Source: Lachnospiraceae bacterium
Lineage (GTDB): Bacteria; Bacillota; Clostridia; Lachnospirales; Lachnospiraceae
Direction: 5' to 3'
Assembly: GCA_017938145.1 (NCBI GenBank)
Contig: JAGBCB010000014.1
Span: 20,262-84,261 of the forward strand
DNA length: 64,000 nucleotides
Part shown: one piece after another, positions 11,202 to 37,243 of the stretch
Position numbering within the stretch: the stretch's first letter is position 1
How the letters are laid out: the number at the start of each line of letters is the position of its first letter
Translations under genes and position numbers: made by a program
The notes under the pieces: model-generated
What the model was told of the DNA's origin: nothing
Database searches by the model: none
What the model saw: the letters and a program-made list of their open reading frames with translations, nothing else

Positions 11202-11230
11202 GATACGTTACTCCCATTCCTGTAGCTTAA

Positions 11231-18100: not shown

Positions 18101-19327
18101 TTCTGATAAGGCATCCGCCAGCTCTTTTTCACCGTCCGCAATTTGCTGTTCACCGTCTTTTATTTCTGCCAAGGCATCTGCCAGCTCTTTTTCGCCGTCC
18201 GCAATTTGCTGTTCGCCGTCTTTTATTTCTGCTAAAGCATCTGCCAGTTCTTTTTCCGCATCTGCCAGCTGACGTTCACCGTCTTCAATTTCTGCCAATG
18301 CATCCGCCAATTCTTTTTCTGCATCTGCTAACTGCTGTTCGCCGTCTTCGATTTCCGCCTTTGCATCGGCCAGTTCCTTTTCGCCGTCTGCAATTTCTAT
18401 TTCACCATCGGCAATTTTCTTTTCGGCATCTGCGATTTCCACTTCCGCATCCGCCAGTTCCTGTTCTGCATCCGCCAGTTCTTTTTCGCCATCCGCCAGT
18501 TCTTTTTCACCGTCGGCAATCTCAGCTTCTGCCTCACGGATGTCTTCCCAGTATGGGTCGGTTACTTCCGCATACCGGACTTCGCACCGTGCATCCGCAA
18601 TCGCCTCAATACGCTCAATTATTTCGTCAATATAATTCTCATATTCTTCCCGATAAGGATTTAACTCCTTAGCACCTTCCACCGTAGCATAAACCACGGT
18701 ATAAACCTCCATGGAGAACGCCTCCTTCGGAAGAAACAGGAAACCGTCTTCCACGCCGGTACCAATGCTTACGGAACCTCTCTGCCAGGATAAGTAGTTA
18801 GGAAAAATACCTGCGCCCACAATAGTAAAGGTATCTACCGCCAACACATCGGAAAGCTCTGTATCCTTATCCGTACGGAGTGTAATTGTATCGCCGATTT
18901 TATAGCCACAGCTTGACATAAAATCCCGGTCAACAAAACATTCATTTGCCGCCTCCGGTACCCGGCCCTCTGTAACATAAACCTGGTTCAATGCATCTCC
19001 CATGGAATACACCGACATCTGGTAATCTCTTTGGCCCGCTTCTAAAAACAGTTCTGTCTGATAACCACCCTCAGCCATGGCCACACCGTCTATTGCACCG
19101 ATTTCCTTTACGTCATCATCGGTCATTCCCAGCGTACCCAGCACCCGGACATCCATGTAGTTTGTTTCATCAAAATATTGTTTTGCACTCAACTGCATGT
19201 CCGGTTCCGAAGAACGTACTCCGGCATAAAACGCCACGCCCAGCGCCATAATAGCGAGAATGGAAATATAGCGGTTGAAGCTTTTTTTCATTTCTCTAAC
19301 TAAGTCTGTTCTTTGTGCTTTTTTCAT
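15149..19327 (-). CDS. FtsX-like ABC permease with giant repetitive coiled coil
   Basis: 1392 residues. Layout: basic N-terminus and first helix (about 17-36); a MacB-like outer domain to about residue 260; a coiled coil from about 262 to 835; a first FtsX permease block (VFPAVFYLVAALVSLTTMTRMIEEER); a second MacB-like domain; and a second FtsX block (VIVVLIVAAGMLAFIVLYNL) with ERRRELATLKVLGF. The coiled coil is made of near-identical 21-residue (three-heptad) units, an ADGEKELADAL family and a YEEGLAELEQAKLDLADG family. The ATPase gene ends 15 bases upstream, so the pair forms one transporter. FtsX/MacB-type pumps often push or signal mechanically rather than transport across a channel. The coil probably stands tens of nanometres off the membrane (inference). 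Substrate unknown. Confidence 0.9.
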   Translation of the reverse strand: MKKAQRTDLVREMKKSFNRYISILAIMALGVAFYAGVRSSEPDMQLSAKQYFDETNYMDVRVLGTLGMTDDDVKEIGAIDGVAMAEGGYQTELFLEAGQRDYQMSVYSMGDALNQVYVTEGRVPEAANECFVDRDFMSSCGYKIGDTITLRTDKDTELSDVLAVDTFTIVGAGIFPNYLSWQRGSVSIGTGVEDGFLFLPKEAFSMEVYTVVYATVEGAKELNPYREEYENYIDEIIERIEAIADARCEVRYAEVTDPYWEDIREAEAEIADGEKELADGEKELADAEQELADAEVEIADAEKKIADGEIEIADGEKELADAKAEIEDGEQQLADAEKELADALAEIEDGERQLADAEKELADALAEIKDGEQQIADGEKELADALAEIKDGEQQIADGEKELADALSEIKDGEQKLADAEKELADALSEIKDGEQQIADGEKELADALAEIQDGEAQISDAEQEIAAGEWELYWAERTIADNEAKIAGAEKEIEAGEQELAAGEAALVVAKEQLAAGKNELEAGKTALAQKEAEFNAAKELLEANGLPLTPELLAAEAEILAAKQLLEGKEAELLAGEQQLAASEAEIIAGKNELEAAKQEVEAGKKQIAAAKDELWYAGWQLADGRAELETAKAELEDGRKQYEEGLAELEQAKLDLADGKKQYEEGLAEVEQAKLDLEDGKKQYEEGLAELEQAKLDLADGKKQYEEGLAELEQAKLDLADGKKQYEDGLAEYEQAKLDLADGKKQYEDGLTEYEQAKLDLADGKKQYEDGLAELEQAKLDLEDGKKELADAKKKVEDARVEITDAKTEIADGKKELEDGKKELADAKAELEDVEVPEWYVLDRGTVQQFVEYGSNTERVGNLGDVFPAVFYLVAALVSLTTMTRMIEEERTQIGTMKALGYGKGAIVSKYLWYSLSATLLGGVLGIVVGSYLFPWVIMKAYGILYTNIPYILTPIQWGVSGISVAIAVVCTVVATMSSCYKEMVAAPAILMRPVAPPAGRRVFLEYVKPVWNALNFSWKATCRNLFRYKKRFFMTIFGIGGCMALLLVGFGLRDSIMDIVNKQYAEVWTYDAYLSINDEAVSLEEKMQADDIKNHMFIHTKTMDVGSDENVVSSTLFVPERLEDLEDFVVLQDRVSGEKYRLTEENTIITEKLAKLLDVSVGDTIELNFDDVTRYQVTVDAIAENYMFHYVYLSAEKYEQLCNEVPEYNQLYLKTVDMTEEEKEVFSGRMLSDDGVDSVTYVEELRESVAVMMKSLELVIVVLIVAAGMLAFIVLYNLNNINIIERRRELATLKVLGFYDMEVANYVYRENVLLTILGAAAGVIMGLFLHRFVIMTVEIDMMMFGRDIEALSFVYSIVLTFVFAIFINIGMFYKLRKIDMATSLKSAE
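16957..17400 (-). repeat. Seven tandem 63-bp repeats in the permease coiled coil
   Basis: Seven in-frame copies encoding Y-E-(E/D)-G-L-A-E-x-E-Q-A-K-L-D-L-(A/E)-D-G-K-K, 21 residues each. Codon-level differences show the copies are not all recent. Limits are approximate. Confidence 0.8.
17972..18350 (-). repeat. Six tandem 63-bp repeats, second family, in the permease coiled coil
   Basis: Six in-frame 21-residue copies of the I-(E/K)-D-G-E-Q-Q-(I/L)-A-D-x-E-K-E-L-A-D-A-L type. Limits are approximate. Confidence 0.75.
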
Positions 19328-23835: not shown

Positions 23836-24720
23836 TTACTTTGAATACTTCATCAGATTCTTTAAATCTTCTACCGTAAACTCATACTTCTTATCGCAGA
23901 AGTGGCAGTTTACTTCAATTGGTTTGCCTTCTTCAATCATTTCCTGTAAATCCTTTTTGCCAACGCTGGCAACCGCCTTTTCCACACGCTCCTTGGAGCA
24001 GTTGCAGTAATACTCTGCAGGAACCTTGTCTAAAATCTTTGGTTCGAAATCTGCCAGTACATACTCAATGAGTTCTTCCGGAGTCATTCCTTCGTCAAGC
24101 AGGGAAGAAATGTGGGTTACCTCGGTAAGCTTCTGCTCTAAGCGGGCAATTACCGCTTCTTCTGCAAACGGCATGAGCTGGATGATAAAACCACCGGCCT
24201 GACGTACCGTGTTGTCCTTATTCATAAGAACGCCCAGGGCAACTGCAGACGGAACCTGCTCGGACACCGCAAAATAGCAGGTGATATCTTCCGCAATTTC
24301 ACCGGAAATCAAGTCCACCTGGCCTACATATGGCTCTTTTAAACCAACATCGCGGATAACCTGCAGCATACCGTGGCCTACCGCACCACCGACATCCAAC
24401 TTACCCTCTGCACTCGGAGGCAGCATTACGTTTGGATTGTGCACATAACCCTTAACTCTTGCCTTGGAATCCGCAGTTACCACAAGTCCGCCGATAGGAC
24501 CGTCGCCGCGAATCTGCAGGGTGATTAAGTCCTTATCACCTTTCATCATGCTTCCCATCATGGCGCCGGCTGTAAGCAGACGACCGAGAGCCGCAGATGC
24601 TACCGGACTGGTATTATGCATTTTTCTGGCTTCTTCTACTAAATTTCTGGTGGTTGCAGCAAAGGCACGTACCTGGCCGTTCGCTGCGGTTCCTCTAACA
24701 ATATAATCCTGATATTCCAT
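23836..24720 (-). CDS. hslO: Hsp33 redox-regulated chaperone
   Basis: 294 residues, full length. Holdase chaperone of the cytosol that is switched on by oxidative unfolding. The C-terminal zinc switch has all four cysteines: NCSKERV with YYCNC before it (CxC), and NCHFCDKKYEF (CxxC). The N-terminal core shows the family phrases ALGRLLTAGAMMGSMMKGD and GDGPIGGLVVTADS. It is the last gene of the long minus-strand operon, 27 bases after the 5-formyltetrahydrofolate cyclo-ligase gene and ahead of the terminator at 23749-23778. Confidence 0.97.
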   Translation of the reverse strand: MEYQDYIVRGTAANGQVRAFAATTRNLVEEARKMHNTSPVASAALGRLLTAGAMMGSMMKGDKDLITLQIRGDGPIGGLVVTADSKARVKGYVHNPNVMLPPSAEGKLDVGGAVGHGMLQVIRDVGLKEPYVGQVDLISGEIAEDITCYFAVSEQVPSAVALGVLMNKDNTVRQAGGFIIQLMPFAEEAVIARLEQKLTEVTHISSLLDEGMTPEELIEYVLADFEPKILDKVPAEYYCNCSKERVEKAVASVGKKDLQEMIEEGKPIEVNCHFCDKKYEFTVEDLKNLMKYSK

Positions 24721-24747
24721 CGTAAAAATTCCTCTTTTCTAATGCGT

Positions 24748-25437
24748 TTAATCTATTACTTCGGCAATCAGTTCCAAACCAACCTCAATGGCGATTTCCA
24801 CCACGTCGGCGATAATGTCCAGTTTGCTGCCCTTTTCTACCCTAGGCATTATAACCCGACGCTCGGTTAAAATGCAATCCATTTTTTTATCATGTTCTTC
24901 TGCCGGCAGCTTTTTCGGGGAAATCTGGCAAGCAAATGCAAGTCCGATGAGATACGGCTGATAACCATACGCTTCAAATATTTTGCTAATATACTTGTCA
25001 TAATATCCGCCGCCGTATCCGAAACGTCCGCCCTGATGGTCAAACACAGAACCCGGCACAACCATCACATCACTGCTTGCCGGCACAAGCGGTTCTCTTC
25101 CTTCATTCTGTGGTTCTAAGATGCCCTGATAACCCGGAAACAGTTCCTCCCATGATTGAATTTCATAAAAGAACATATCCTCTCCATGTACCTTTGGCAC
25201 AGCAACCCGCTTTCCCTGACGAAGTGCCCCCTGAATAATTTCCTTTGTTTCTACTTCGCTCTTGTAAGAAGCATACACAAACACTGTCTGTGCCGCCTTA
25301 TAGTGTTTATTGGCAAACAGCCACTCTTTTATTTTCTTTGAAGCCGCTTTTCTCTTTTCCGGCTCCAGCTGATTTCTTTTTTCCAAATATTTTGTACGGA
25401 TTGTTTTCTTTAACTCCGCTTTTGTTAATTTACTCAT
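24748..25437 (-). CDS. 5-formyltetrahydrofolate cyclo-ligase
   Basis: 229 residues. ATP-dependent conversion of 5-formyl-THF to 5,10-methenyl-THF. Family segments: RKAASKKIKEWL near the N-terminus, FVYASYKSEVET, KRVAVPKV, and the conserved GSVFDHQGGRFGYGGGYYDK with the folate/ATP-binding glycines. After the usual end it has about 30 extra residues (LDIIADVVEIAIEVGLELIAEVID), a hydrophobic/acidic helix not typical of the family. The gene starts 8 bases inside the end of the methyltransferase gene, so the two are translationally coupled. Confidence 0.92.
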   Translation of the reverse strand: MSKLTKAELKKTIRTKYLEKRNQLEPEKRKAASKKIKEWLFANKHYKAAQTVFVYASYKSEVETKEIIQGALRQGKRVAVPKVHGEDMFFYEIQSWEELFPGYQGILEPQNEGREPLVPASSDVMVVPGSVFDHQGGRFGYGGGYYDKYISKIFEAYGYQPYLIGLAFACQISPKKLPAEEHDKKMDCILTERRVIMPRVEKGSKLDIIADVVEIAIEVGLELIAEVID

Positions 25438-26248
25438 AATATTTATTCTCCTGATAGGTTTCTTTCGCTACAAAATAGATTCTTCCGTCCTCCGGCTTTG
25501 GTGCTTCCTTCGTGCCGTCTCCGTATACCGCCACAAATTCAAGACCTGCTTTTTCGAGCAATTCCTTTATCTTGTCTACAGTGTAAGCACGCTGCACGTG
25601 GGATTCTTCCATCCGTTCAAAAAGAGGCGGCATATCTTCCTCATCCTCGTCCTCTTCTTCAAACTCTGCCTTGGAATAAATGGTAATGTCGTACTGGTTC
25701 AGCTGCTTTTCCTTATCATAGAAATTTTCCCAAATAAGGCTGCAATCCTCCCGGTTATCCACAATGGTACGATTGCCCATGAGCTTTTCGTAATGATATT
25801 CCGTCTTCATATCGAAGATGAAATATCCGCCCGGGTCCAAATAATTATTTACCAGCTTGAATACCTGAAGCAAATCCTCTTCGGAGATTAAGTAGTTCAT
25901 GGAATCACAAAGACTAATTACCGCTGCCACCGTGCCATAAAGCTCAAACTCCCGCATGTCCTGATTCAGGTACAAAATGTCCTGCTCACATTCCGGATGC
26001 TCATACCTGGCAATGTCTAACATTTCCTCCGACAAATCAATGCCAATCATATCGTAACCCGCTTCTGCCAGGCGCCTTGTCATACTACCAGTGCCACAGC
26101 CAAGCTCGCAAAGAAGGCTGCCCTGTGCCACACCGTATTCCGTTAACATGCATTTAATATAGGTTGTCCATTCCTCATATGGAATGTTGTCCATAAAGGT
26201 TTCGTATACTTTTGCAAAGCCTGTGTAGGCGTTCATTGGTTTACTCAT
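25430..26248 (-). CDS. Class I SAM-dependent methyltransferase
   Basis: 272 residues. Motif I LLCELGCGTGSMTRRL, motif II IGIDLSEEMLDIA, and a motif III region VISLCDSMNYLISEEDL place it among small-molecule class I methyltransferases. An acidic insert EFEEEDEDEEDMPP lies in the C-terminal half, as in several Firmicutes homologues. Substrate cannot be told. It overlaps its upstream neighbour (nucleotidyltransferase-fold gene) by 8 bases and its downstream neighbour by 8 bases. It is therefore in the same transcript as the peptide-processing genes, but may belong to the housekeeping end. Confidence 0.88.
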   Translation of the reverse strand: MSKPMNAYTGFAKVYETFMDNIPYEEWTTYIKCMLTEYGVAQGSLLCELGCGTGSMTRRLAEAGYDMIGIDLSEEMLDIARYEHPECEQDILYLNQDMREFELYGTVAAVISLCDSMNYLISEEDLLQVFKLVNNYLDPGGYFIFDMKTEYHYEKLMGNRTIVDNREDCSLIWENFYDKEKQLNQYDITIYSKAEFEEEDEDEEDMPPLFERMEESHVQRAYTVDKIKELLEKAGLEFVAVYGDGTKEAPKPEDGRIYFVAKETYQENKYYE

Positions 26249-27422
26249 TTACCTCTCCTTTTTTGTCCGTTTTTCCAAAAAGATTTTTGACTGTTTTTAC
26301 CTCTCTGCTAACAGACCGTCTGCGCTTTCCCGTAAAGGTCACAATAAAGATTCTGCAAAACCATCCCACAACCGACTGTAGAACTCTTCCTTTCACGTTA
26401 GGAGCATAAAACTTATAGGTATCATACCCCGGAAACAATCTGTCCCACGCATAACGGAGCTTTGCCATTTTCAAACCCTCTTTACGATACTGTTTCACAC
26501 GGTTTTCTATACCGCGCCCCACCGTACCGTACGCACCGGAGGTAAGGTAATACAAAAGCATTTCCCATTCTTCCTCTGAAAGGCTATGTTCCAATGACTC
26601 CATTCCCTTTAAGACTTCTCCGGAAAATGCCTTCCTGCAAAGGCTCCTGTTCCGCTTTTCAAACTCCGCAATACCAAGCACTTTGCATTCTTTTTCAATA
26701 TAAGAAAAATCAAGTTCCGGCTTCGCTTTCAGATACGCATAAAAATCGAGTAACGAACGCAGTCCCGTACCACTGCCAGCATAATGCTTATAGGTATGGG
26801 AAGTAATGTACACATAAAAATCCTCGTCCGTAAAGCGATACTCACAGGCGGTTCCTTCGGTTAACACAAGCCTGCCTTTTATATTCCCATAATACTCTGC
26901 CCATCCGTCCTGATGGGTTTCGCTGTATAAGGCACTGTGTAATTCAAAATTGTAGACAGGCTCCTTATGATACACATCATGGTTACCTACGCCCACATGA
27001 ACGGCTTCGTACCCCGCTGATTCCATGTAACCCTGTACCGCATCACAAAAGCTGTAATCAAATAGAATATCATTATCCGACATTTGCCGCATTCCCACCG
27101 TCGGGTAATAGTCCTTTAGGATAATTCCCTTTAACGGCAGATGCCAGATGCCCTTCTGCTCCATAAAGGAAAACAGCTTTGCACGTTCCGTATCAAACAA
27201 AACCACCTTGCGGATTGCCTTAGATATATGCTCATTCCAATACTGCGGTACCGGGATACCAGCCTTTTTCAGTGATGTACCCACAAGTGCATCCAAAAAA
27301 TGCATATAACTTATGCGGTACAATTCCTTTTCATTCACTTCGCCGAGCACTGCCCTGTCCGGACAAATACCGTTGATGCCACAGGCAGACAAATAAAGCA
27401 TGTCATATTGTAACTTATCCAT
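26241..27422 (-). CDS. Nucleotidyltransferase family protein (NTP_transf_5 type)
   Basis: About 393 residues. The core KGIWHLPLKGIILKDYYP followed by MRQMSDNDILFDY is the active-site pattern of the NTP_transf_5 (PF14907) family, with Asp pairs expected to bind Mg2+. FELHSALYS and the later YITSHTYKHY are also typical. Such proteins are often encoded in lasso-peptide and other RiPP clusters of Firmicutes, though their reaction is mostly unproven; nucleotidylation of a substrate or kinase product has been proposed. ATG at 27422 has GGAGG nine bases before it. It overlaps the ABC exporter gene by 8 bases. Start codons further upstream (27458) are less likely. Confidence 0.85.
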   Translation of the reverse strand: MDKLQYDMLYLSACGINGICPDRAVLGEVNEKELYRISYMHFLDALVGTSLKKAGIPVPQYWNEHISKAIRKVVLFDTERAKLFSFMEQKGIWHLPLKGIILKDYYPTVGMRQMSDNDILFDYSFCDAVQGYMESAGYEAVHVGVGNHDVYHKEPVYNFELHSALYSETHQDGWAEYYGNIKGRLVLTEGTACEYRFTDEDFYVYITSHTYKHYAGSGTGLRSLLDFYAYLKAKPELDFSYIEKECKVLGIAEFEKRNRSLCRKAFSGEVLKGMESLEHSLSEEEWEMLLYYLTSGAYGTVGRGIENRVKQYRKEGLKMAKLRYAWDRLFPGYDTYKFYAPNVKGRVLQSVVGWFCRIFIVTFTGKRRRSVSREVKTVKNLFGKTDKKGEVNE

Positions 27423-29109
27423 GGTCTGCCACCTCCAATCCCTGCAAAACTCTTCCATTGTCCGAAAACTCCAACCTGCGGTTGCAGATATTCAGTGCTT
27501 CCGGTCTGTGGGTTACGATAAACACTGTCTTATCAGTAAGCTGCTTCAGGTTGTAAAGCAAAGCTTTTTCCGTGTCACTGTCCAAAGCACTGGTTGCTTC
27601 ATCCAGAATCAATACCGGAGCATCCGTATACAGTGCCCTTGCGATTGCGATTCTCTGCATCTGTCCTTCGGAAAGTCCGGCTCCCTTTTCGCCAAGCACC
27701 GTATCAAGTCCATTTGGAAGCTCAGAAACGAACTCCCCACAAGAAAGCTTTAATGCCCGTTCCACCGTCATAGTTTGTTCCGCTTCCTCTCTTCCAAAGG
27801 TAATTACTTCCCGTATGGTTCCTCCCATGAGGAAATTTCCTTGCGGAACATAGGCAAACAGACGCTTTAAGGATGCAACAGGCATTCTCTCCATATTGCT
27901 TAATAAAACCTCAATCCTGCCGCATTTCGGCTCATATACGCCCATCAGAAGCTTTAACAACGTGGACTTGCCGCAGCCGGAAGCTCCGGTAAAGGCAATA
28001 AAATCGCCCTTGTAAGCGGAAAATCCCACATCGCACAACACAGCTTCCCCATTATCATAATCAAAGGACACCTTATCAAACACGATTTCACGGATACGCT
28101 CCGCATAAAGCTCCTTCGTTTCTTTCAAACCCAACACCTGCAATCTGCAAGCGTCCTTGTATTCCTCCGCTTCCATCAGGCGCTCAGCACTTGCAAGACA
28201 GGCATAAAACCTTGGTACAAAGCCGCTGAGACCGGATAAAGGAGCCTGTAACTGACCGATTAACTGTATAATGGCAGTTAATGTTCCATAGCTGACCACT
28301 CCGTTTACGATACCAAATCCACAGTACCCGATACCGATGAGATACATTCCGTTTATTGCCACGGAAAAGCCGGAATTGCATAAATTAGAAACAAACGTCT
28401 TTCTCATTCTCGCCTTTCTGTATTCGGAAAGCTCCACATCTGCCCCTTTTAAGGCTTCCTGCTCCACACCAAAGGTGCGGAGAATGAGCATACTGCTGAT
28501 ACGCTCCTGTAAATATACACGAACAGCACCGTCTTTTTCCTGTACTCTTTTGTGCTGTCCTTTCAAATACTTTCTAAGCCAAAGGGTAATCCCTACAAAG
28601 GCAATCCCGCCCGGTACCAAAAGATAAGCAAGCCCCGGCTGTAACACAAGCATCATACCAAGGGCACCCACCATGCGCACAAGCATTCCCGTAAATCCCG
28701 GCACGATATCCGTCATGCCCCCTGCACAGACGGAAGTATCCGAGGTCATGCGGTTCATCCATTCTTCAGAATGAACGGCACTAACCTGTGCATAATCCTT
28801 GGATAAGAGTTTTTCAAACAGCCTTTTCCTCAGTCCGCTCTCCAATCCGCTTTTGGTAGCTTCCTCTATCTGCCGGAGCAGAATGCGAAGCAGAATCAGT
28901 ACGGCCATCAGCAAGCCAAAGGTAATAAGTCCCCTTATAAAATCTGTGCGGTTACCAGACACGGCACTATCCACCATTTTTTTCATCACAAGGGCATAGC
29001 AAACCGCCCCTCCGTTGACTAACATTTGGAGAAGCAATAAAAGCACCATATTTACCTTGTAACCGTTGGCTGCACCATACAACCATCTTATCGCCTTTTT
29101 ATCCGTCAT
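27415..29109 (-). CDS. ABC exporter, fused permease and ATPase
   Basis: 564 residues. Six N-terminal helices (first VNMVLLLLLQMLVNGGAVCY) and a C-terminal ATPase with Walker A GASGCGKST, a variant signature (LSEGQMQRIAIARAL), Walker B VLILDEATSALD and switch His in VFIVTHRPE. There is no C39 peptidase domain at the N-terminus, so leader removal must be done by another protein, plausibly the neighbouring S24/S26-like peptidase. ATG at 29109 forms an ATGA overlap with that peptidase's stop. In this context it is the likely exporter of the peptide product. Confidence 0.92.
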   Translation of the reverse strand: MTDKKAIRWLYGAANGYKVNMVLLLLLQMLVNGGAVCYALVMKKMVDSAVSGNRTDFIRGLITFGLLMAVLILLRILLRQIEEATKSGLESGLRKRLFEKLLSKDYAQVSAVHSEEWMNRMTSDTSVCAGGMTDIVPGFTGMLVRMVGALGMMLVLQPGLAYLLVPGGIAFVGITLWLRKYLKGQHKRVQEKDGAVRVYLQERISSMLILRTFGVEQEALKGADVELSEYRKARMRKTFVSNLCNSGFSVAINGMYLIGIGYCGFGIVNGVVSYGTLTAIIQLIGQLQAPLSGLSGFVPRFYACLASAERLMEAEEYKDACRLQVLGLKETKELYAERIREIVFDKVSFDYDNGEAVLCDVGFSAYKGDFIAFTGASGCGKSTLLKLLMGVYEPKCGRIEVLLSNMERMPVASLKRLFAYVPQGNFLMGGTIREVITFGREEAEQTMTVERALKLSCGEFVSELPNGLDTVLGEKGAGLSEGQMQRIAIARALYTDAPVLILDEATSALDSDTEKALLYNLKQLTDKTVFIVTHRPEALNICNRRLEFSDNGRVLQGLEVADHG

Positions 29110-29549
29110 GTCCTGTCTTTCCTTAACATTCTTTTGCATCTAAGCTTACACTTCATCACAAATCTCCGTAGCGGATAGAAGAAATACCACACAGCCGCAT
29201 ACATCCGATAACCCTTGTGACTGACTGGAATTTCCTTTCCGTTTCTGACAAAGGATGTCATAACACCGATGATATCTTCGTCACGAATTCCATGCTCTTT
29301 ATTTAAACAGTTATCACCGAGTATCACATAGTCCGTTTCCCGAACCTCCACTATACGGTGCAGTACATAGGACTTCGGCGGTCTTTTATACAACACCACA
29401 TCGAACTTCTCATACCGGCCCTGCTTCTTTTCAATGGTGAAAAGGTCTTTGTGCTGCCTTAGAAGCGGAAGCATGCTGACACCGCTGCAGGTATAGGTAA
29501 ACCTGCCTGTTCTGTTCAATTCTTCCTCGTAAGTGGTCTTAATCATCAA
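29106..29549 (-). CDS. S24/S26 family signal-peptidase-like serine protease
   Basis: 147 residues. The SGVSMLPLL motif holds the likely catalytic Ser25, and YVLHRIVEV gives His64, with GDNCLNKEHGI further on. The Ser plus His arrangement follows the archaeal/ER type of signal peptidase rather than the bacterial Ser-Lys type. It lacks the N-terminal membrane anchor of normal signal peptidases, having instead a short hydrophobic/basic C-terminus (AAVWYFFYPLRRFVMK). Proteins like this recur next to PqqD-like and HPr-kinase-like genes in RiPP-type loci. Here it is a reasonable candidate for leader-peptide cleavage. It overlaps the PqqD-like gene by 11 bases and the exporter gene by 4. Confidence 0.85.
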   Translation of the reverse strand: MMIKTTYEEELNRTGRFTYTCSGVSMLPLLRQHKDLFTIEKKQGRYEKFDVVLYKRPPKSYVLHRIVEVRETDYVILGDNCLNKEHGIRDEDIIGVMTSFVRNGKEIPVSHKGYRMYAAVWYFFYPLRRFVMKCKLRCKRMLRKDRT

Positions 29550-29799
29550 TCGCTCCTATGCTTCGTAACTGCTCCAAAATCTTTTCTACGTCTTTTTCCA
29601 TCACTTCCCTTGGAGCATCATACTTCTCAAGCATTTTAGAGATAATATCATCTTTTGTCACATCGTTTTTTAAGCACTCCACAATAAAGCCTGCGGTCCG
29701 ATTACTACGAATCATCCCGTTAAATGCCGTATTTCCGCCAGTCACCGTAATGTGTTCTCCGTTACTTGCATGGGTAATAAATCCGTCTCTTAACTTCAT
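29539..29799 (-). CDS. PqqD-like RiPP recognition element protein
   Basis: 86 residues with the PqqD winged-helix pattern: MKLRDGFITHASNGEHITVT, GMIRSNRTAGFIVECLKN and a C-terminal helix (MEKDVEKILEQLRSIGAIDD). Such stand-alone proteins (B1 in lasso clusters) bind a leader peptide and hand it to a modifying enzyme or protease. It sits one base after the HPr-kinase-like gene and overlaps the peptidase gene. The small peptide encoded at 31224-31325 is the obvious partner in the locus. Confidence 0.88.
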   Translation of the reverse strand: MKLRDGFITHASNGEHITVTGGNTAFNGMIRSNRTAGFIVECLKNDVTKDDIISKMLEKYDAPREVMEKDVEKILEQLRSIGAIDD

Positions 29800-29800
29800 G

Positions 29801-30568
29801 TCAATCCTCCGTCTTATCTCCGTTCATCCCCTCAAAAGCCACCCTTGCAGCTTCCGGGGACATGTTGCAGCCTAATCTGTAGAATCTTATGTTCTTCATC
29901 ACTCTGTCAATCAGTTCCAGGGTCTGTAGCATAAAAGCACCGTTCTTTGGACGATAAGTCTGCTGTAACAGCATCTGATAGGCTTCCCCGGGCGAAATCT
30001 CTTCTATGTGGTTTTCCTCGCTTCTGGTAAGGATGCAAATTGCCTTTAACGGCACGGAACAATTGGTACTCAGTCTGTGCTTGCCATCCCAAGGCGTACC
30101 GTAGGCTATCACACTGTCTTCCGTCACCTTCAAAAGGGGCTTGTCGTCATTTACCATCACCGCCCGGTTCCCGAACCGTTCCCTCCACAGCCTTGTATGG
30201 GTGGACTTCCCGGTACCGCTCTTTGCGGTAAATAAATATCCCATACCGTCCACCGCAATCACAGAACCATGAAACAGTAAGGTATCAAGCATAGGTAATC
30301 GTTCCGCAATCTGACGGTACACAGCCAATGTTTCCAGATAGGCATCGGAAAATTCCATGACAGGACTTCCTTCTCTCTCTGCTTCCCTTCTGGAACGCTC
30401 ACGCTCAAAGGCAATATCCTCCGGTTCTGTCCTGACTGCAAAAGCAGCCTGTTCTTCTGTAATGTATTCCTGACAATACTCTTTCATATAGTCATACATA
30501 GGTTCAATGCGGATAACCACATCTGCCAGCTTTATACGAAAGGGAATTGCCCTGTTATTTTCTGTCAT
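29801..30568 (-). CDS. HPr-kinase-like protein of a RiPP-type locus
   Basis: 255 residues. P-loop YLFTAKSGTGKSTHTRLW (SGTGKS at about 117-122), an AVMVNDDKPLL segment with the acidic pair used by HPr kinases (about 139-145), and FHGSVIAVDG before the P-loop. It lacks the N-terminal domain of true HPr kinase and is closer to the small kinases seen in Firmicutes lasso-peptide clusters, such as the paeninodin kinase that phosphorylates the C-terminal Ser of its precursor. The peptide here ends in Glu, so a C-terminal Ser target is absent; the core contains Ser and Thr. Encoded 24 bases after the lipoprotein gene. Confidence 0.86.
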   Translation of the reverse strand: MTENNRAIPFRIKLADVVIRIEPMYDYMKEYCQEYITEEQAAFAVRTEPEDIAFERERSRREAEREGSPVMEFSDAYLETLAVYRQIAERLPMLDTLLFHGSVIAVDGMGYLFTAKSGTGKSTHTRLWRERFGNRAVMVNDDKPLLKVTEDSVIAYGTPWDGKHRLSTNCSVPLKAICILTRSEENHIEEISPGEAYQMLLQQTYRPKNGAFMLQTLELIDRVMKNIRFYRLGCNMSPEAARVAFEGMNGDKTED

Positions 30569-30592
30569 AGCTTCACATCTTTTCTTGATAAA

Positions 30593-31099
30593 TTAAAATG
30601 CCGGAACAAAAGGTAACTCTATCGGAGCTTCGGTTGGCTCCTCAGTCGGTTCTTCGGTTGGAGCTTCTGTGGTTGGTGTAGTCGGCTCCTCAGTTGGACT
30701 CTCCGTCGGCTCTGTGGTAGGTGTTTCTGTCGGTCTTTCCGTTGGTGCAGAAGTCGGCTCCTCGGTTGGTTCTTCCGCTGGTGCATTTGTCGGTGCTTCT
30801 GTAGGCTTTACAACAGGCTTTTCGGTAGGGGCATCTGTCGGTACTGCTATAGCTGTACCCGCTTGCGTACCCTCGCTCGCCTGTGTCGCAGTCGGCTCCT
30901 CAAGACCAATTATAGGCAAATCTCCTACTACTTCACTTTGCTTCTGTGGTTCTTCCGTTTCCATAGGCTCAGCTGTCTGCGAAACAGACTCTTTATCTAC
31001 GATGTTGTTTGAAGTCTCCTTTGCCTGCTCCTGCTTACCACAAGCTACAAGGCAAACAATCAAGGTTAATACTAAAATAAGACTATATATTCTTTTCAT
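30593..31099 (-). CDS. PT/E-rich lipoprotein ending in the peptide's core sequence
   Basis: 168 residues. Lipobox CLVACG with Cys20, a short acidic region, then about 90 residues of degenerate PTE repeats (TEEPTSAPTERPTETPTTEP-like), probably extended and surface-exposed. The last residues are IELPFVPAF and stop. The seven residues ELPFVPA are the same as in the 33-residue peptide encoded at 31224-31325, and the DNA is partly identical there (CCTTTTGTTCC). It lies between the peptide gene and the kinase gene in one transcript. It may be a second substrate, an immunity factor or a receptor carrying the epitope; none is shown. Confidence 0.78.
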   Translation of the reverse strand: MKRIYSLILVLTLIVCLVACGKQEQAKETSNNIVDKESVSQTAEPMETEEPQKQSEVVGDLPIIGLEEPTATQASEGTQAGTAIAVPTDAPTEKPVVKPTEAPTNAPAEEPTEEPTSAPTERPTETPTTEPTESPTEEPTTPTTEAPTEEPTEEPTEAPIELPFVPAF

Positions 31100-31116
31100 A
31101 CCAATTTCCTCTCTCT

Positions 31117-31150
31117 AAAAAGTGACAGGCATCATTATGACACCTGCCAC
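31117..31150 (-). terminator. Probably leaky terminator after the small peptide gene
   Basis: GTGGCAGG (31150-31143) pairs with CCTGTCAC (31129-31122), one G-U pair, then TTTTT at 31121-31117 on the minus strand. Genes continue downstream without a visible new promoter, so partial termination would give more peptide mRNA than processing-enzyme mRNA. Confidence 0.65.
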
Positions 31151-31223
31151 CCCTTACTTCCATTCATTCTACTGTTACCAGCTAATCAGAATTTTTTATG
31201 TAATTTTACATACTAAGCAGATA

Positions 31224-31325
31224 TTACTCAGCAGGAACAAAAGGAAGTTCTCCACTTGCAGTAATAATGTCCTCTGTCTCGAACTCTACTACTTCCATTT
31301 CCGGTGTTTCATATACCTCTTTCAT
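31224..31325 (-). CDS. 33-residue putative RiPP precursor peptide
   Basis: ATG at 31325 with GGAG seven bases before it, stop TAA at 31226-31224. The N-terminal half reads MKEVYETPEMEVVEFETED, is strongly acidic and carries YxxPxM close to the start, similar to the YxxPxL leader motif that lasso RiPP recognition proteins bind. The middle is IITASG, and the C-terminus is GELPFVPAE. No Cys is present. It starts 29 bases after the BspA-like gene and is followed by a terminator and then the lipoprotein and processing genes. The position, size, leader-like motif and shared C-terminal core together support a ribosomally made, processed peptide. The product structure cannot be read from the sequence. 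Confidence 0.8.
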   Translation of the reverse strand: MKEVYETPEMEVVEFETEDIITASGELPFVPAE

Positions 31326-31354: not shown

Positions 31355-34300
31355 TTAATTGTTACCCGAAACATAAACCTCAGACTTCTGCTGATATACA
31401 CGAAGTGCTGAAATCAACTGTATCAATGTGTCCGGATAAGTGCTGTTTCCCTTATTCAAGACACTATATCCATAAGACAATGCGCTGCAAGAAAATTCTA
31501 ATTCTACACTGCCATTAGATACCTTAAATGCATAACTTGTATCCAAATCCCAAGCCTTGATGTTCTCCAAAGACAACACATAATAATCTCCGGATTTAGT
31601 AGGTGTTACTGTTTGTCCATTAGCTGTAAATGTCAAATTACTTACATCCACACCCTCAGCCGGCTTGAAATATGCCTTTAATGTAGTTTCAGACTTTAAT
31701 GTAAGACTATATCCGGCAAATGTACCTAATTCATTACTTGTAGCAGATACCTTGTATGTTTCAAGGTCACTCGCTATAAGCGTTGTTACCGTTTGGTCTG
31801 CTTCATCAAGGTTCTTATTGGCAAGATTGCCTGTTTCTACTTCAAAATATGTCTGTGAGCAAGCTCCATAATTCAACAAAGCCTTTGCAAAAGCCACATC
31901 ATCAGTAGAATAGCTTGCTGTATTGTTAATGATATACTCTGCGTAATCTCTTACGGTGTAGCTGTATTCCTTACCACCGTTTCCGTTTCCGTCAAACATC
32001 TGAGCCTTAATGCTCTGTGCCATCTCATAAGAAGCTACTTCGCAGGAGAATATATAATAAGTCTTGCCTTCTACAAGTGTTGTATTTTGGGTTGCATCTG
32101 CAATAGCTACCTGCTCTGTATCGCCATTTGGTAATGTAAAGAGCATGTATGCTCCGGTATCACCCACTACCTCTGTGTCAAGTTCCATATAGAAGTTTAC
32201 ACCGATGTTACCATTTAAGCTGATTGTGTATCCTGCCAAATTCGCTCCGATACCATCTGTAAATAAACCACAAACATCACACTTTCCATCGGAATTTGCA
32301 TCTACATGACCTGCTTCTGTCGTTACTTTGCCACATACGCTACAGGTTATTGCTGTCGTACAGTCTCCGTCATCTGCATTTGGTGTACAAGTAATTGTCA
32401 GTATAATGGTATCTTCTACTGCATTATAATTATCAGTTTCAGACACATTTACCTTTACATCATATATTCCGCAATCACTCGGAAGTCCGGCTGTATATTC
32501 TGCATCACCCTGTACTTTATATGAGTATGCAAGCACCACTTCCGGATTGTCGTTTCCGATAAATGTAAGCGTTGGTGCAGTAAGTTCTGCCTCCTCACCC
32601 GTACTTGCAAGCGTCTGATCATTCCATGTAATAACTGTGTTTGCCTTTGTAATCTCAAACTCATCATAAACTGTTACTTCTTCTTCATAAGTAATCTTTG
32701 CTGTATATGTTCCTGCATTGACAGGAGCGTCGGTACCAATTAAAGTATCACCTTGATAGTAATTAACAATAACTTCCTCATTTTCGAATATGCCTGTCTT
32801 TTCAACGGTTGCACCGTAAGCGGTTGTTCCGTCATAAATGCCGCCCTCAGCGGTAATGATAATGTAGCCTTTTTCGCCGCAAGCGGTACATTTCTTAGTA
32901 ATTTTGTTTTCCACTACGCTATATTCGTCCGTGCATTCCTGAATTGCAACAGAATTACATACGGTACAGGTAAAGCTGTGTGTTCCATTGCCGTTGTTGG
33001 TGGCGGTGGTGTGGGCGCTGTCTATGTGGTCACAGGACACGCCGCAGACGGTGCAGGCGCCGCCCACCCAGTTATGCACCTTGTTCACGGTCACACCCTC
33101 GTCAAAGGTGTACAGGCTGCCGTCCCAAGTGCAGGGCACATTCACGGTGGTCAACGCGCTGCAGTTCGAAAACGCGTTATATGCAATACTGGTCACGCTG
33201 GCGGGGATGGTAACGGTGGTCAGCGCTGTACAGCCAGAGAATGCCCACATATCAATGGTCGTCACACCCGCAGGGATGGTCACCGCGGTCAATGCGGTGC
33301 AGTCATAGAATGTGTTGGCTTCAATGGTTGTCACACCCGCGGGGATGGTGATGGTGGTCAGCGCCTCGCAGCCGCCGAACGCCGAACTTCCAATCTTCTG
33401 CACACCGTCGGGGATGGTGATAGTAGCAAGATTCTCGCAGCCGTAGAATGCTTCTTTGCAAATCTCGGTCACGGTGGAGGGGATGGTGTAAGTCTCTACT
33501 TCTATGTTCGGACGGCAGTAAATCAAGGTGGTTTTATCCTTGTCAAACAGCACGCCGTGTTCATCAGAGGAATAGTTGGGGTTATCCTCAGCCACGGTGA
33601 TCTTTGCCGGGCTATACCCAAAAGCACCCTCATCTATGGTGGTCACGGACGCAGGAACCGTCACTGATGTGAGATTTTTGCATTCGCTAAACGCCCGATA
33701 ACCGATGGTTGTAAGTCCCTCGGGCAGGGTGACGCTCTCCAACGCGCACCCAAGGAAAGCCCAGCCTTCGATGGTTTTTAAGTTAGCCGGGAAGTTCACT
33801 GTTTTCAGCGCCGTGCATCCATAGAATGCTTGCTGCGATATGGTCGTAAGGCTGTCTGGCAGCTTTGCAGTGGTGAGTTTCTGGAAACGCCAAAATGCAG
33901 CCTCACCAATAGAGGTGATGCCGTCGTTCACCACGATTGTGGTGATCTGGTCTACATATTCTTCCCAGGGACGGTTATCGTAATTATCGCGCTGATCCGC
34001 TATAGCACCGGTACCGCTGATGGTCAGCGTTCCGTTCGCGTAAGTCCAAATGACATTCTGCTCATTGCCTTCCTCACCACAGTAGCCGCCGATCACTCCG
34101 CAGCCGGTGCAAGCACCGTCGGTGAAGGTGTGACTTTCGGTGAAAGGATTTCCGCAGGAAGAACAGGTATAGCTGTGTGTGCCGTCGGCATTGACGGTGT
34201 AGCCAGCTGCATTGGGGCTGTGACCGCCCACTTCGCCATAACTTGCGCCGCAGGATTCGCAGACTGCCAGAGTGGTGCAGGTCGCCGTACCGCCGGTGTG

Positions 34301-37147
34301 GGCGCAGTCTTCGCCGCAGTCTTCGCACTTGCCGTCAACGTAGCTATGCTTAAATGTGATGGACTTGAAGGTGTAGCTCAGGTCTTCTCTTACCTGCCAG
34401 GTTGCTGTGCCGTCATCATGAAAAGTCACGGCATCTTTCTTATCGCAGCACAGCACCAAGTCAACCTTACCGGAATAGTTCTGCGATGCTATGTTGAAAT
34501 GATTACTGCCATTGAAGGTGATATTGCCCGCAGCGGTCAGCTCCAGCGGGAAGGGCATAGGATTATTTTCGGTCGTAAATTTTGCTCCAACCAGCAATCC
34601 GCCCTGTTCAATGGTCGTCACCTTCGGGAATTTGGCAGAGGACAAGGTCCAGGTACCGCTGAACATATCAGTGGGGATCGTCGTCAATTCGGGAAATTCT
34701 ACGGATGTAAGTGCTGTATAGCCAAATGCCTGCGCTCCAATTGTCTGCGCCTTGGGAGCTGAGACAGAAACCAGATTTTCACAAAAATAAAACGCCTGAG
34801 CACCAATTTCTGTCACATCGGGGAGATTGATAGATGCCAATTGGGTAACGAGTTCCTGATCTACAATTTCTCCGGCTTCATCATATATGTCACCGGGGCC
34901 AAAAGCAACACCGTCCCAGTTGGTGGTACCGGGAATCGTAGTCACGCCCTTGAGGGTGAGGTGGATGCTGCCGTCGGCAACGCCCTCGGTGTCGCAGATG
35001 GCGCGGCGGATGGCGGTGATCATCCCGGCTTCTGCATCGACAGGAAGCTCCACCGTAAAGGTTCTGCTGCCGGTTTCCAGAATTGCGGTTACTGCCTGAT
35101 TCAGCGTTGCTGCATCGGCTGCATAGCAGGTGTTCGTGCCATCGGTGACGGTGGCAATCGAAGCATCCGCGCCGCACGCACTGCACTTGCCTGTGGTAAC
35201 ATCCAAGGTGTGCGGCACCTCGGCAACAGCAGCGCCGCAGGCACAGGTATAGCTGTGGGTGCCGTCGCCGTTGTCGGTGAAAATGGTACCTTCCGTAGGG
35301 GTGTGAATATTCGCATCCTTATCGCCGTAGCTTACGCCGCAGGCTTCACAGACTGCCGGATCCTGACAGGTAGCCGTGCCGCCGGTGTGCTCTGTAGCTT
35401 CGCCTATCGTCCAGTTGCAGACAGAGCAGACAGGGGTATGGGTGGTTTCGGTGGTGATATAATCCAGTTTAACATCTTTGTGATCGCAGATGGCGCGGAT
35501 GGTAATGTCGCCCTTATCGGTGATGCTGGTAGCATCATCAGCCACGGTGAGCATGGTATCCTTGTCTTCCACCTTGCCCCAATAGGTTGCAACTTCGGTA
35601 GCCAGCAATTCAGCCAATGTAGTACTTACAACGGTAATACCGCCGGGGAAAGTGGCACCCTCAGTCTTAACCTCGTCCAAGGTAAGATTCAAAATACTGT
35701 CAGATACTCCTACATACAGATCAACCGTTCCGCCGGAAATGGAGCCTCCGGTGATGGTGGCGCTTCCGCGTTCGTTATACACGCCATAGGCCGTGCTGGT
35801 GATGGTTCCGCCAGTGATTTTGACCGTTCCGCCATCGTGGACATACACACCGGTGTCATATGTCTTACCAGCGATGGCGCTGAAAGTACCACCGCTGATG
35901 GTAAGTTCAGCACTGTCGAAAACCTCCACGGCATTTTCAGCACTACTTGCTGTGATAGTGCCACCACTAATGGTAGCCGTACCACCGGAAACAACAATAT
36001 CACCCGTATAGCTGCCGCCACTAATGGTAGCTGTGCCTCCGGTAATATTTATACCACCTGTATAGTTGCCGCCGGTGATGGTAAGCGTACTATCTTGAGA
36101 CTCTACCCTCGACTTTACAGAACAAACGGTGCCGGTGATATTGGTGTTGCCACTGATGTTCGCAGTACCGCGATTATCCACACCGATAGAACCGCTTATG
36201 GTGCTGTCTGTAATAGTCAAAGTTCCTATGTTATCAATTGCAGATGCAGCCGAACTCGAATGGGTATTGAGAATCTGACTGTTAAATACATTCAGCGTGG
36301 TCTCATTGGTCATATCGATTGTAGCAACAACTGAATTGCTTTCCACAGTACTGCCGCTGACTGTCATGGAGGTACCCGACACCGTCTTAACCGATCCACT
36401 TACAGTGCAGCCGTCGATGTATGCCGATGCGCTGCGAGCTGTATATGCCCCAGGCTCTCCTAACATTAGAGCATAGTCAGTACCCGTTCCGTCCAGCTTA
36501 CCGCCGCCGACACTATCGATAATCGTCAGCTTTGTGTTGTTGGTTGTGATCGCCACCATCGTTTCATAGTCATCAGCAAAATAAGCTGTACAGGACAGAG
36601 TATTGCCGTTCAGATCCAGCGTTGCGCTGTTGGTAATGTCCAAGCGTTCTCCAGTGGTGGTATCTTGCAGGAGGGTAATGGTGGCATTGCCGGACTCATT
36701 GGCTTTGGCGACTGCATCCTTGATGGAGGTATAATAGGTGGTTTCGCCGTTGATGGTAACGGATACCTTATCGCCCTCCGTATAAACCACAGCCGTATCG
36801 GTGCCAGTGCATTTGGCATAGTCAAAGCCGCAGACATCGCACCAGAAGTTCTGGGTCTCCACCCCGCAGGCTTCCGCACAGCTGCACACGGGATTCTCAG
36901 GAGCCACATACACCGCACAGGTGGTGGCGTGGATCGCCGGGTCATCGGTTCCGCAGGTGCATTCTGTTGTAGCAGACGCATCATTCGATGAAACACTCTC
37001 TACTATCAGTTCATCACTTATAATTGTATCCGTCCCTTCTGCCGATACCGTCAGGATATTCCCCGGCATTAGTCCTACCATTAAGGCTACGGTCAGCACG
37101 AAGCTTAGTATTCTCCTTCCGAGTTTGTTTGATTTTACTTTTTTCAC
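31355..37147 (-). CDS. Giant BspA-like secreted protein, mosaic
   Basis: About 1930 residues from the GTG at 37147, chosen because AGGAGG lies seven bases before it; a TTG six codons upstream lies before that site. A signal peptide ends near VSAEG. Then come a Cys-rich stretch, a right-handed beta-helix-like part with many TISGGT-type rungs, several CSVC/CEAC-like zinc-ribbon motifs (CDVCGF, CSVCNW, CEACGVSYG), and two LRR_5/BspA blocks with phrases such as LTTIGYRAFSECKNLTSV. The C-terminal 350 residues form an unnamed domain ending in YQQKSEVYVSGNN. I see no LPXTG, SLH or choline-binding anchor. Base composition is clearly more GC-rich at about 33000-36960 than at either end. Confidence 0.85.
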   Translation of the reverse strand: MKKVKSNKLGRRILSFVLTVALMVGLMPGNILTVSAEGTDTIISDELIVESVSSNDASATTECTCGTDDPAIHATTCAVYVAPENPVCSCAEACGVETQNFWCDVCGFDYAKCTGTDTAVVYTEGDKVSVTINGETTYYTSIKDAVAKANESGNATITLLQDTTTGERLDITNSATLDLNGNTLSCTAYFADDYETMVAITTNNTKLTIIDSVGGGKLDGTGTDYALMLGEPGAYTARSASAYIDGCTVSGSVKTVSGTSMTVSGSTVESNSVVATIDMTNETTLNVFNSQILNTHSSSAASAIDNIGTLTITDSTISGSIGVDNRGTANISGNTNITGTVCSVKSRVESQDSTLTITGGNYTGGINITGGTATISGGSYTGDIVVSGGTATISGGTITASSAENAVEVFDSAELTISGGTFSAIAGKTYDTGVYVHDGGTVKITGGTITSTAYGVYNERGSATITGGSISGGTVDLYVGVSDSILNLTLDEVKTEGATFPGGITVVSTTLAELLATEVATYWGKVEDKDTMLTVADDATSITDKGDITIRAICDHKDVKLDYITTETTHTPVCSVCNWTIGEATEHTGGTATCQDPAVCEACGVSYGDKDANIHTPTEGTIFTDNGDGTHSYTCACGAAVAEVPHTLDVTTGKCSACGADASIATVTDGTNTCYAADAATLNQAVTAILETGSRTFTVELPVDAEAGMITAIRRAICDTEGVADGSIHLTLKGVTTIPGTTNWDGVAFGPGDIYDEAGEIVDQELVTQLASINLPDVTEIGAQAFYFCENLVSVSAPKAQTIGAQAFGYTALTSVEFPELTTIPTDMFSGTWTLSSAKFPKVTTIEQGGLLVGAKFTTENNPMPFPLELTAAGNITFNGSNHFNIASQNYSGKVDLVLCCDKKDAVTFHDDGTATWQVREDLSYTFKSITFKHSYVDGKCEDCGEDCAHTGGTATCTTLAVCESCGASYGEVGGHSPNAAGYTVNADGTHSYTCSSCGNPFTESHTFTDGACTGCGVIGGYCGEEGNEQNVIWTYANGTLTISGTGAIADQRDNYDNRPWEEYVDQITTIVVNDGITSIGEAAFWRFQKLTTAKLPDSLTTISQQAFYGCTALKTVNFPANLKTIEGWAFLGCALESVTLPEGLTTIGYRAFSECKNLTSVTVPASVTTIDEGAFGYSPAKITVAEDNPNYSSDEHGVLFDKDKTTLIYCRPNIEVETYTIPSTVTEICKEAFYGCENLATITIPDGVQKIGSSAFGGCEALTTITIPAGVTTIEANTFYDCTALTAVTIPAGVTTIDMWAFSGCTALTTVTIPASVTSIAYNAFSNCSALTTVNVPCTWDGSLYTFDEGVTVNKVHNWVGGACTVCGVSCDHIDSAHTTATNNGNGTHSFTCTVCNSVAIQECTDEYSVVENKITKKCTACGEKGYIIITAEGGIYDGTTAYGATVEKTGIFENEEVIVNYYQGDTLIGTDAPVNAGTYTAKITYEEEVTVYDEFEITKANTVITWNDQTLASTGEEAELTAPTLTFIGNDNPEVVLAYSYKVQGDAEYTAGLPSDCGIYDVKVNVSETDNYNAVEDTIILTITCTPNADDGDCTTAITCSVCGKVTTEAGHVDANSDGKCDVCGLFTDGIGANLAGYTISLNGNIGVNFYMELDTEVVGDTGAYMLFTLPNGDTEQVAIADATQNTTLVEGKTYYIFSCEVASYEMAQSIKAQMFDGNGNGGKEYSYTVRDYAEYIINNTASYSTDDVAFAKALLNYGACSQTYFEVETGNLANKNLDEADQTVTTLIASDLETYKVSATSNELGTFAGYSLTLKSETTLKAYFKPAEGVDVSNLTFTANGQTVTPTKSGDYYVLSLENIKAWDLDTSYAFKVSNGSVELEFSCSALSYGYSVLNKGNSTYPDTLIQLISALRVYQQKSEVYVSGNN

Positions 37148-37243
37148 TTTTATTCCTCCTATCAAAAAATCCTATGTATATCTATCCATTATCTATATAA
37201 ATGGTGAAAACCATAATTTGTAAATTATTTCTCTTTTACTCTT

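Follow-up and report, generated by a model that had tools for sequence, protein, structure and literature searches.

A leader-peptide locus of Lachnospiraceae with a lipoprotein stalk whose tip resembles the end of the peptide

The window analysed here is a stretch of 64,000 nucleotides from a Lachnospiraceae bacterium (GenBank assembly GCA_017938145.1, contig JAGBCB010000014.1, positions 20,262 to 84,261), and its minus strand carries, in this order, the genes for a large secreted protein, a leader peptide, a lipoprotein stalk, an HprK-like kinase, a PqqD-like protein, an S26-like protease, an ATP-binding cassette (ABC) exporter and an NTP_transf_5 enzyme, with the part from the peptide gene to the NTP_transf_5 gene spanning 26241–31325 (Table 1). 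The window peptide ends in GELPFVPAE and the window lipoprotein ends in ELPFVPAF, and a correspondence of this kind recurs in related loci. We tentatively propose that the locus encodes a surface-retention system whose central element is a linear, phosphorylated peptide secreted by the cell; in this system the peptide and the stalk tip may be alternative ligands of the C-terminal domain of the secreted protein. The co-occurrence of the genes, their order, the tip match, the register of a conserved serine and the absence of a lasso-type B2 protease were computed directly. A preliminary description, made from the sequence alone, had recognised the 33-codon leader peptide and the HprK-like, PqqD, S26, ABC and NTP_transf_5 genes, all of which were confirmed on the minus strand. 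It omitted the lipoprotein gene between peptide and kinase as well as the upstream 1936-residue secreted protein, which is part of the system, and it missed the central facts, namely the identity of the tip with that of an anchored stalk and the coupling to a secreted protein.

Peptide ends and stalk tips

Stalks were selected as a membrane anchor plus a low-complexity chain, a rule that is blind to the stalk end. Both a peptide and a stalk were present in 33 loci, and 30 remained after removal of the near-copies L069, L077 and L105 (the list of dropped near-copies also includes L045, L120, L137 and L147, none of which has both a peptide and a stalk). The peptide/tip match score over these 30 loci has a mean of 21.9 for the matched pairs versus 14.3 for permuted pairs (standard deviation 1.0), a value reached by none of 20,000 permutations, and the score is at least 20 in 13 of the 30. 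Five unusual tags rank first among the 30 tips, with the peptide/tip pairs GWSGYY/GWTGYY (L040), PPEGEEVE/PPEGEEID (L076), GEIDPDE/GEIDPDL (L125), GGAGNED/GGAGTED (L135) and NIDENEWA/NLDENEWA (L138), and the ten tips without an LPxxP motif, taken alone, give a result that only 1 of 100,000 permutations reaches. The genome G510 has the pair GDGVILPDE/GEGIVLPDD, with its two members about 8 kb from each other.

Nine pairs, chosen because peptide and tip match, were compared at the codon level: among 56 positions with the same residue in both genes, 29 also have the same codon, versus 25.7 expected from local codon usage. Recent duplication as the source of the match is for this reason not supported, and the match is maintained at the protein level by selection. 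In stalks anchored at the N-terminus the tip is the C-terminus of the protein, and in the C-anchored stalks of L080, L083, L099 and L100 it lies right after the signal peptide, so that the constant feature is the membrane-distal position of the tip.

Some further proteins resemble the stalks in part. Those of L106, L131 and L095 are C-anchored and have a longer, less simple N-terminal region in place of the short tip; in L106 and L131 they adjoin a secreted protein with a different C-terminal domain, an arrangement that is perhaps another docking pair. An end of the form W-T-G-L-aromatic recurs across genomes, in the stalks of L333 and L340 (..NWTGLY) and in the peptide of L246 (..QGWTGLF), and may be compared with the GWTGYY tip of L040. 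Close to the locus, positions 20253–23207 of the window encode a 984-residue lipoprotein with a PT-rich stretch and a PstS-like domain, without the tip motif.

Leader peptides, maturation genes and their recurrence

The leader peptide is a single-copy gene in the source genome, which is 78% complete, and its match in a whole-genome profile search (E 7e-14) is far above chance. Serine is the third residue after the end of the profile in 114 of 120 unique peptides, and the sequence beyond it is variable. The search profile ended before the leader end and was therefore blind to the serine column; all 32 seed peptides had the serine, and the real test is provided by the peptides found later. The spacing from the leader Tyr/Phe to the serine is 19 in 108 of 110 peptides (the 114 with serine minus four without the leader motif), and 109 of these 110 have Val or Ile at position −2. 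This is the register of BsfA, in which, according to PMC10368454, the HPr-kinase homologue BsfK, helped by a PqqD-like B1 protein, phosphorylates Ser3, and position −2 is Ile. Enzymes of these two types, kinase and nucleotidyltransferase, serve in lasso clusters to phosphorylate and phosphoglycosylate the peptide, and the enzyme PsmN adds hexoses to the phosphorylated peptide (PMC8498205). The "nucleotidylated" product of the preliminary description has no support; the one enzyme of this kind that has been studied attaches hexoses to a phosphate.

The maturation enzymes retain their expected key residues. Kinase residues H100, G118, G120, K121 and D142 are invariant and S122 and D141 are at least 90% conserved in 11 aligned sequences, the two Asp residues of the DxD motif of NTP_transf_5 are present in 61 of 61 aligned sequences, and the S26-like protein has both its Ser and its His in 84 of 84. 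This last protein scores 29.7 bits against the NCBIfam signal peptidase I model, under the cut-off of 51.85, and is a candidate leader protease in place of B2, as had been suggested earlier. Position 1 of the predicted core is Thr in 91 of 120 peptides. The window core TASGELPFVPAE, read in the BsfA register, has no Asp or Glu at positions 7–9; were it cut after the serine, G1 and E9 would agree with the small first residue and the Asp/Glu at 7–9 of lasso cores, but Gly follows the serine in only 46 of 120 peptides. Cores near the window locus are short, acidic and proline-rich.

With the phosphorylated lasso peptides (BsfA/BsfK, paeninodin, pseudomycoidin) the locus thus shares a YxxPxL-type leader, a PqqD-like B1 protein, an HPr-kinase homologue, a nucleotidyltransferase and an ABC exporter, together with a serine in the Ser3 register and Ile/Val at −2. 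Unlike them, it has no B2 and no linked C cyclase but an S26-like protease instead, its family of cores mostly starts with Thr, its product is predicted to be linear, and a stalk and a secreted protein are linked to it. No B2 was found in the source genome or, over the cut-off, in any of 63 leader-bearing genomes, two of which gave weak sub-threshold matches, so a distant B2 that is always linked to the cluster was not found; the sole Asn_synthase (PF00733) match in the source genome covers 43 positions and lies on another contig. The earlier idea of RiPP-like leader/PqqD logic (RiPP, ribosomally synthesized and post-translationally modified peptide) without a known cyclase is thereby supported, as is that of the kinase as the likely modifying enzyme of a probably linear product. 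Recognition would thus be the same as in phosphorylated lasso peptides and the phosphorylation logic is probably the same, with no lasso formed; in its maturation arm the system is a variation on the phosphorylation branch of lasso biosynthesis. An HprK-related kinase and a PqqD-like protein also make up the HPr-rel-A system (TIGR04352/TIGR04353), but the window proteins score far under the cut-offs of these models, with 12.4 versus 200 and 18.9 versus 35 bits.

A scan of GTDB genomes with the kinase gave at least 560 relatives, of which the best 80 loci were kept. Culturable commensals are among the carriers of such loci, for example Hespellia stercorisuis DSM 15480 (L106) and Ruminococcus flavefaciens FD-1 (L088). 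In 91 non-redundant loci, contig-cut ones included, the kinase has PqqD nearby in 76, S26 in 74, ABC in 65 and NTP_transf_5 in 61, and the only same-strand open reading frames (ORFs) recurring in at least five of the 91 are those of the module itself, of a secreted protein with the C-terminal domain and of a radical SAM enzyme. Peptides matching the leader profile occur in 60 of the 117 stretches and, at the level of genomes, in 46 of 391 from the class and 23 of 397 from the family, with up to 20 matches per genome. The kinase is present in 44 of 45 leader-positive class genomes versus none of 13 leader-negative ones, the latter taken from the top of the list and not drawn at random. Within a draw of 299 family genomes it occurs in 78 at E≤1e-3, including 28 at E≤1e-35, and at the stricter threshold in 19 of 20 leader-positive genomes versus 9 of 279 others (three more leader-positive family genomes fall outside the 299).

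A radical SAM/SPASM-type enzyme adjoins the leader peptide in six loci (L108, 930–2342; L113, 892–2247; L129, 10456–12105; L133, 8635–9999; L138, 8533–10002; L145, 2001–3380). That of L108 matches PF04055 at 2.7e-19, with NCBIfam maturase models under their cut-offs. All six have Cys in the peptide core (TTSC..., TTSTC..., TTSGNC...), which among the 60 loci with peptides is otherwise found only in the near-copies L044/L045. These loci represent a version of the system to which one more modification is added, and the enzyme and the core Cys together support a modified product of the RiPP type. The variant resembles radical SAM/SPASM RiPP pathways, unlike the window locus, which has neither such an enzyme nor Cys in its core; in the family as a whole, kinase and nucleotidyltransferase are thus not the sole modifiers, contrary to the first description.

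Several related arrangements were seen alongside. L053 has two identical leader peptides (9096–9263 and 11039–11206), and the secreted protein that each of them immediately follows is a different one. In L068 (8967–9335; G000:C72), L065 (10353–10634) and L066 (8391–8636 and 11909–12253) there are longer peptides, most of them rich in Cys, whose leader begins in a related way; they adjoin a more distant HprK, ABC, S26 and NTP set and may be a second class of product from this toolkit. The source genome has a second kinase-PqqD-S26-ABC-NTP set (L038, G000:C53:179-4552), which is truncated by the contig start so that any peptide and stalk belonging to it are missing.

The preliminary description had treated 23836–31325 as one locus, which holds for 26241–31325 only. 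Positions 23836–26248 contain three genes, one a methyltransferase by profile match and the other two presumably Hsp33-like and FTHF-cycloligase-like, for none of which a comparison with 116 loci (L033–L148) revealed a homologue at E≤1e-10; they were accordingly rejected as tailoring enzymes. An origin as a defence island or phage was also rejected, as a PADLOC scan of six locus proteins matched only the ABC protein, as a generic ATPase, and a PHROGs scan of four locus proteins gave no match. Elsewhere in the window, at 15149–19327, there is a gene for a protein of 1392 residues, permease-like as judged from its sequence, with a long run of ELADAxxEIADGE-like repeat units.

Table 1. Features of the locus, with window positions and the basis of each assignment
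Feature	Positions	Strand	Evidence
Large Sec-type secreted protein, 1936 residues, BspA-type leucine-rich repeat passenger	31355..37165	-	LRR_5 2e-81; stops 29 nt before the peptide gene
CTD1, C-terminal domain of the 1936-residue protein, about 290 residues	31358..32248	-	AlphaFold2 model
Leader peptide gene, 33 residues, MKEVYETPEMEVVEFETEDIITASGELPFVPAE	31224..31325	-	Leader profile E 7e-14; Shine-Dalgarno-like GGAG ahead of ATG
Predicted leader, residues 1–21, MKEVYETPEMEVVEFETEDII	31263..31325	-	Tyr-17/Pro-14/Met-12 and Ile-2 register, as in PMC10368454; predicted cut site
Ser24, nearly invariant; predicted phospho-acceptor at position 3 of the predicted core	31254..31256	-	Ser in 114/120 unique peptides
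Predicted core TASGELPFVPAE	31227..31262	-	Variable after Ser
Terminator-like hairpin between peptide and lipoprotein genes	31122..31150	-	56-nt fold, -24.2 kcal/mol, z -6.3
Lipoprotein stalk, 168 residues, lipobox then PT/E-rich low-complexity chain	30593..31099	-	PT repeat and weak lipoprotein profile matches; sequence
Stalk tip ELPFVPAF, counterpart of peptide end ELPFVPAE	30596..30619	-	Sequence comparison
Putative HprK-like peptide kinase	29801..30568	-	Hpr_kinase_C E 0.0037, under Pfam cut-off; NCBIfam matches also under cut-off
Putative PqqD-like leader-binding protein	29539..29799	-	PF05402 54 bits, cut-off 23
S26-like Ser-His protease, candidate leader peptidase	29106..29546	-	sigpep_I_arch E 5e-7, under cut-off; no Pfam match
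ABC exporter, membrane domain and ATPase	27415..29139	-	Profile match
NTP_transf_5 nucleotidyltransferase-fold enzyme	26241..27458	-	PF14907 129 bits

The secreted protein and its C-terminal domain

An ORF of at least 100 residues ends within −40 to 250 nt upstream of 102 of 114 testable peptides, with a median gap of 21 nt, and it is large and usually has a hydrophobic N-terminus. Some genomes have 9 to 20 scattered leader peptides, and 40 of the 41 of these that were read follow an ORF of at least 75 residues, mostly long and with a signal-like N-terminus. The genes for secreted protein and peptide are probably translationally coupled. The hairpin between the peptide and stalk genes of the window carries a T run, and a structured spacer (z ≤ −2.3 against mononucleotide shuffles) is found in 23 of 25 loci, the exceptions being L036 and L110 (the 25 include three near-copies, and the spacer of L048 is too short). 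Such a spacer suggests joint production of the secreted protein and peptide, at higher levels than the stalk and machinery.

The C-terminal domain of the window protein (CTD1) is present once in the source genome. Modelled alone with AlphaFold2 (predicted local distance difference test, pLDDT, 93; predicted template modelling score, pTM, 0.88), it takes the form of a pair of Ig/FnIII-like sandwiches with a helical hairpin behind each of them. It belongs to no Pfam family, and when its fold was compared by VIA-align over the top 1000 Foldseek matches nothing stood out. In the family draw, 12 of 13 CTD1 genomes have the kinase, and up to 51 CTD1 matches occur per genome, some of which are pieces of one protein. 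CTD1 is present in the genomes of 22 of 26 loci with LPxxP tips versus 6 of 15 with other tips (p 0.005, exploratory); the table behind this count omits L055 (genome G141, without CTD1), which would give 6 of 16, and L040 and L051 come from one genome, G130.

Comparison with the nearest relative, L069, shows a recombination block. Protein identity is 99.3% for CTD1, 99.4% for the stalk, 94% for the peptide and 67–88% for the machinery, and the passenger is unrelated. In the DNA the passenger does not align (45–52% when forced), CTD1 is 97–100% and the stalk about 100% identical, and identity drops from 96 to 72% within the kinase gene and is 66–83% in the remainder. The leader residues of the two peptides are identical, and the core has two residues different and one added. 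This profile indicates that CTD1, peptide and stalk travel together as the passenger is exchanged.

Proposed mechanism and competing explanations

What we infer beyond the computed results is phosphorylation at Ser24, the cleavage site with S26 as the leader protease, export of the product by the ABC protein, binding and competition. In the surface-retention mechanism, the secreted protein and peptide would be made from adjacent genes, and the hairpin would then set off the stalk and machinery genes. PqqD would bind the YxxPxM leader, the HprK-like kinase would phosphorylate the near-invariant serine at core position 3, the S26 protease would cleave off the leader, NTP_transf_5 may extend the phosphate by a further group, and export of the finished peptide would fall to the ABC protein. 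Outside the cell the peptide end and the like stalk tip would be alternative ligands of the C-terminal domain of the secreted protein, so that the stalk would keep this protein on the cell and the peptide would compete for, or cap, the same site. We suggest docking because of the distal position of the tip, the exploratory association of CTD1 with LPxxP tips, the shared recombination block and the many CTD1 copies in some genomes.

A number of results weigh against this proposal. The score of 12 of the 30 loci is under the permuted mean, i.e. there is no match (L043, L048, L132 and others), and the twenty LPxxP tips alone give a modest signal (2062/100,000). A first replicate with nine pairs from other searches was not significant (8531/100,000, p ~0.09), and a second with 18 genomes or loci, clear misses included, gave 755/100,000 (p ~0.008) and shares eight of the nine pairs of the first (L164 as G388); both leave out L207 (near-copy of L193), L292 (genome of L285) and G531 (genus of G469), and for multi-peptide genomes only peptides from fetched stretches were counted. 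The related loci do not count as independent observations. In many distant genomes the peptides follow secreted proteins but no stalk is recognisable, and the docking model leaves these genomes and the 12 mismatched loci unexplained. The LPxxP rule was defined after the tips had been seen, CTD1 also occurs with other tips in the 6 of 15 genomes given above, and G229 has CTD1 without the kinase. As to clusters without a peptide gene, the outcome is mixed, as 9 of the 28 kinase-bearing family genomes yield no leader match at E≤1e-3, and two of these nine (G285 and G039) do hold a diverged leader peptide (L044/L045, 14.5 bits).

Of the alternatives, it is unlikely that the peptide is a covalent anchor, in which a phosphoserine extended by NTP_transf_5 attaches it to a wall polymer or glycan, with the core then holding the secreted protein. 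The activity of PsmN (PMC8498205), the frequency of NTP_transf_5 near the kinase with both Asp residues retained, and the serine being the last constant peptide residue are all in line with such an anchor, but NTP_transf_5 lies beside the kinase on the same strand in only 13 of 40 distant stretches, and the stalk is not explained by an anchor alone. We also doubt that the product is a bacteriocin attacking a surface receptor of rivals, with the stalk end as a tethered mimic that occupies the producer's own receptor. The exporter, the modifying enzymes (including the six radical SAM enzymes) and the anchored stalk with the same tip would suit this function, whereas the position of the peptide gene behind a large ORF with a usually hydrophobic N-terminus, also for the scattered peptides of single genomes, the short, acidic, proline-rich cores near the locus and the adhesin-like passengers argue against it. 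Improbable, too, is a shared motif that serves as a substrate tag for one common processing or modifying enzyme and not as a ligand: the motif is short, terminal and common to both proteins, and the stalk does not share the leader, but the motif also stands at the N-terminal end of the C-anchored stalks, and the stalk has a Sec-type signal, none being obvious on the machinery as judged from sequence. A peptide pheromone signalling cell density, buffered or presented by the stalk tip, is more improbable still; the product would be a small, exported and modified peptide, but no receptor or regulator is among the recurring same-strand ORFs, the strand to which that survey applies, and the coupling to secreted proteins would be left unexplained. 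A lasso cluster with B2 and C supplied from elsewhere in the genome was rejected as hardly credible, since, although lasso clusters do include genes of the kinase, PqqD, nucleotidyltransferase and ABC types (PMC7533575), no B2 was found in the source genome (78% complete) or, over the cut-off, in the 63 leader-bearing genomes, and core position 1 is mostly Thr.

The surface-retention system has partial parallels among known systems. In cohesin-dockerin surface docking, modular passengers with one docking domain are held by few anchors per cell, as proposed here, but the proposed ligand is a short linear tip, which the cell would also secrete in free form. Bacteriocin clusters with NisI-type immunity lipoproteins have a lipoprotein gene beside a modified peptide, whereas the lipoprotein here is a low-complexity stalk repeating the peptide's own end. 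LPXTG sortase substrates are displayed on the surface by means of a short LP-containing motif, which in contrast to the present tips precedes a C-terminal membrane segment; here the motif is at the free distal end. No system is known to us that combines a docking-type secreted protein with a membrane stalk whose tip recurs in a modified secreted peptide, and a literature search, with most subscription papers and all preprints outside its coverage, yielded no paper describing such a combination.

Kinase/PqqD sets are commonly regarded as appendages of lasso clusters; in the present case the peptide served by the set is probably linear and is, in many Clostridia, tied to secreted proteins of the surface. 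With still greater caution than for the mechanism itself, we put forward that this may be a new class of surface display in Clostridia, in which modular secreted proteins dock by their C-terminal domain on a stalk tip, a phosphorylated soluble copy of the tip, matured and exported by the cell and produced along with the docked protein, caps or releases them, and tip and peptide co-evolve as a self-specific code. Because peptide and stalk match, short synthetic peptides would allow a direct test of the function. If the proposal is true, it would explain how some gut and rumen bacteria keep large adhesin-like proteins on their surface, would assign a function to those HprK-like kinases whose substrate is not HPr, and would constitute a genetically encoded, self-specific docking pair; the locus may thus represent an unrecognised way to hold or release surface proteins in Clostridia.

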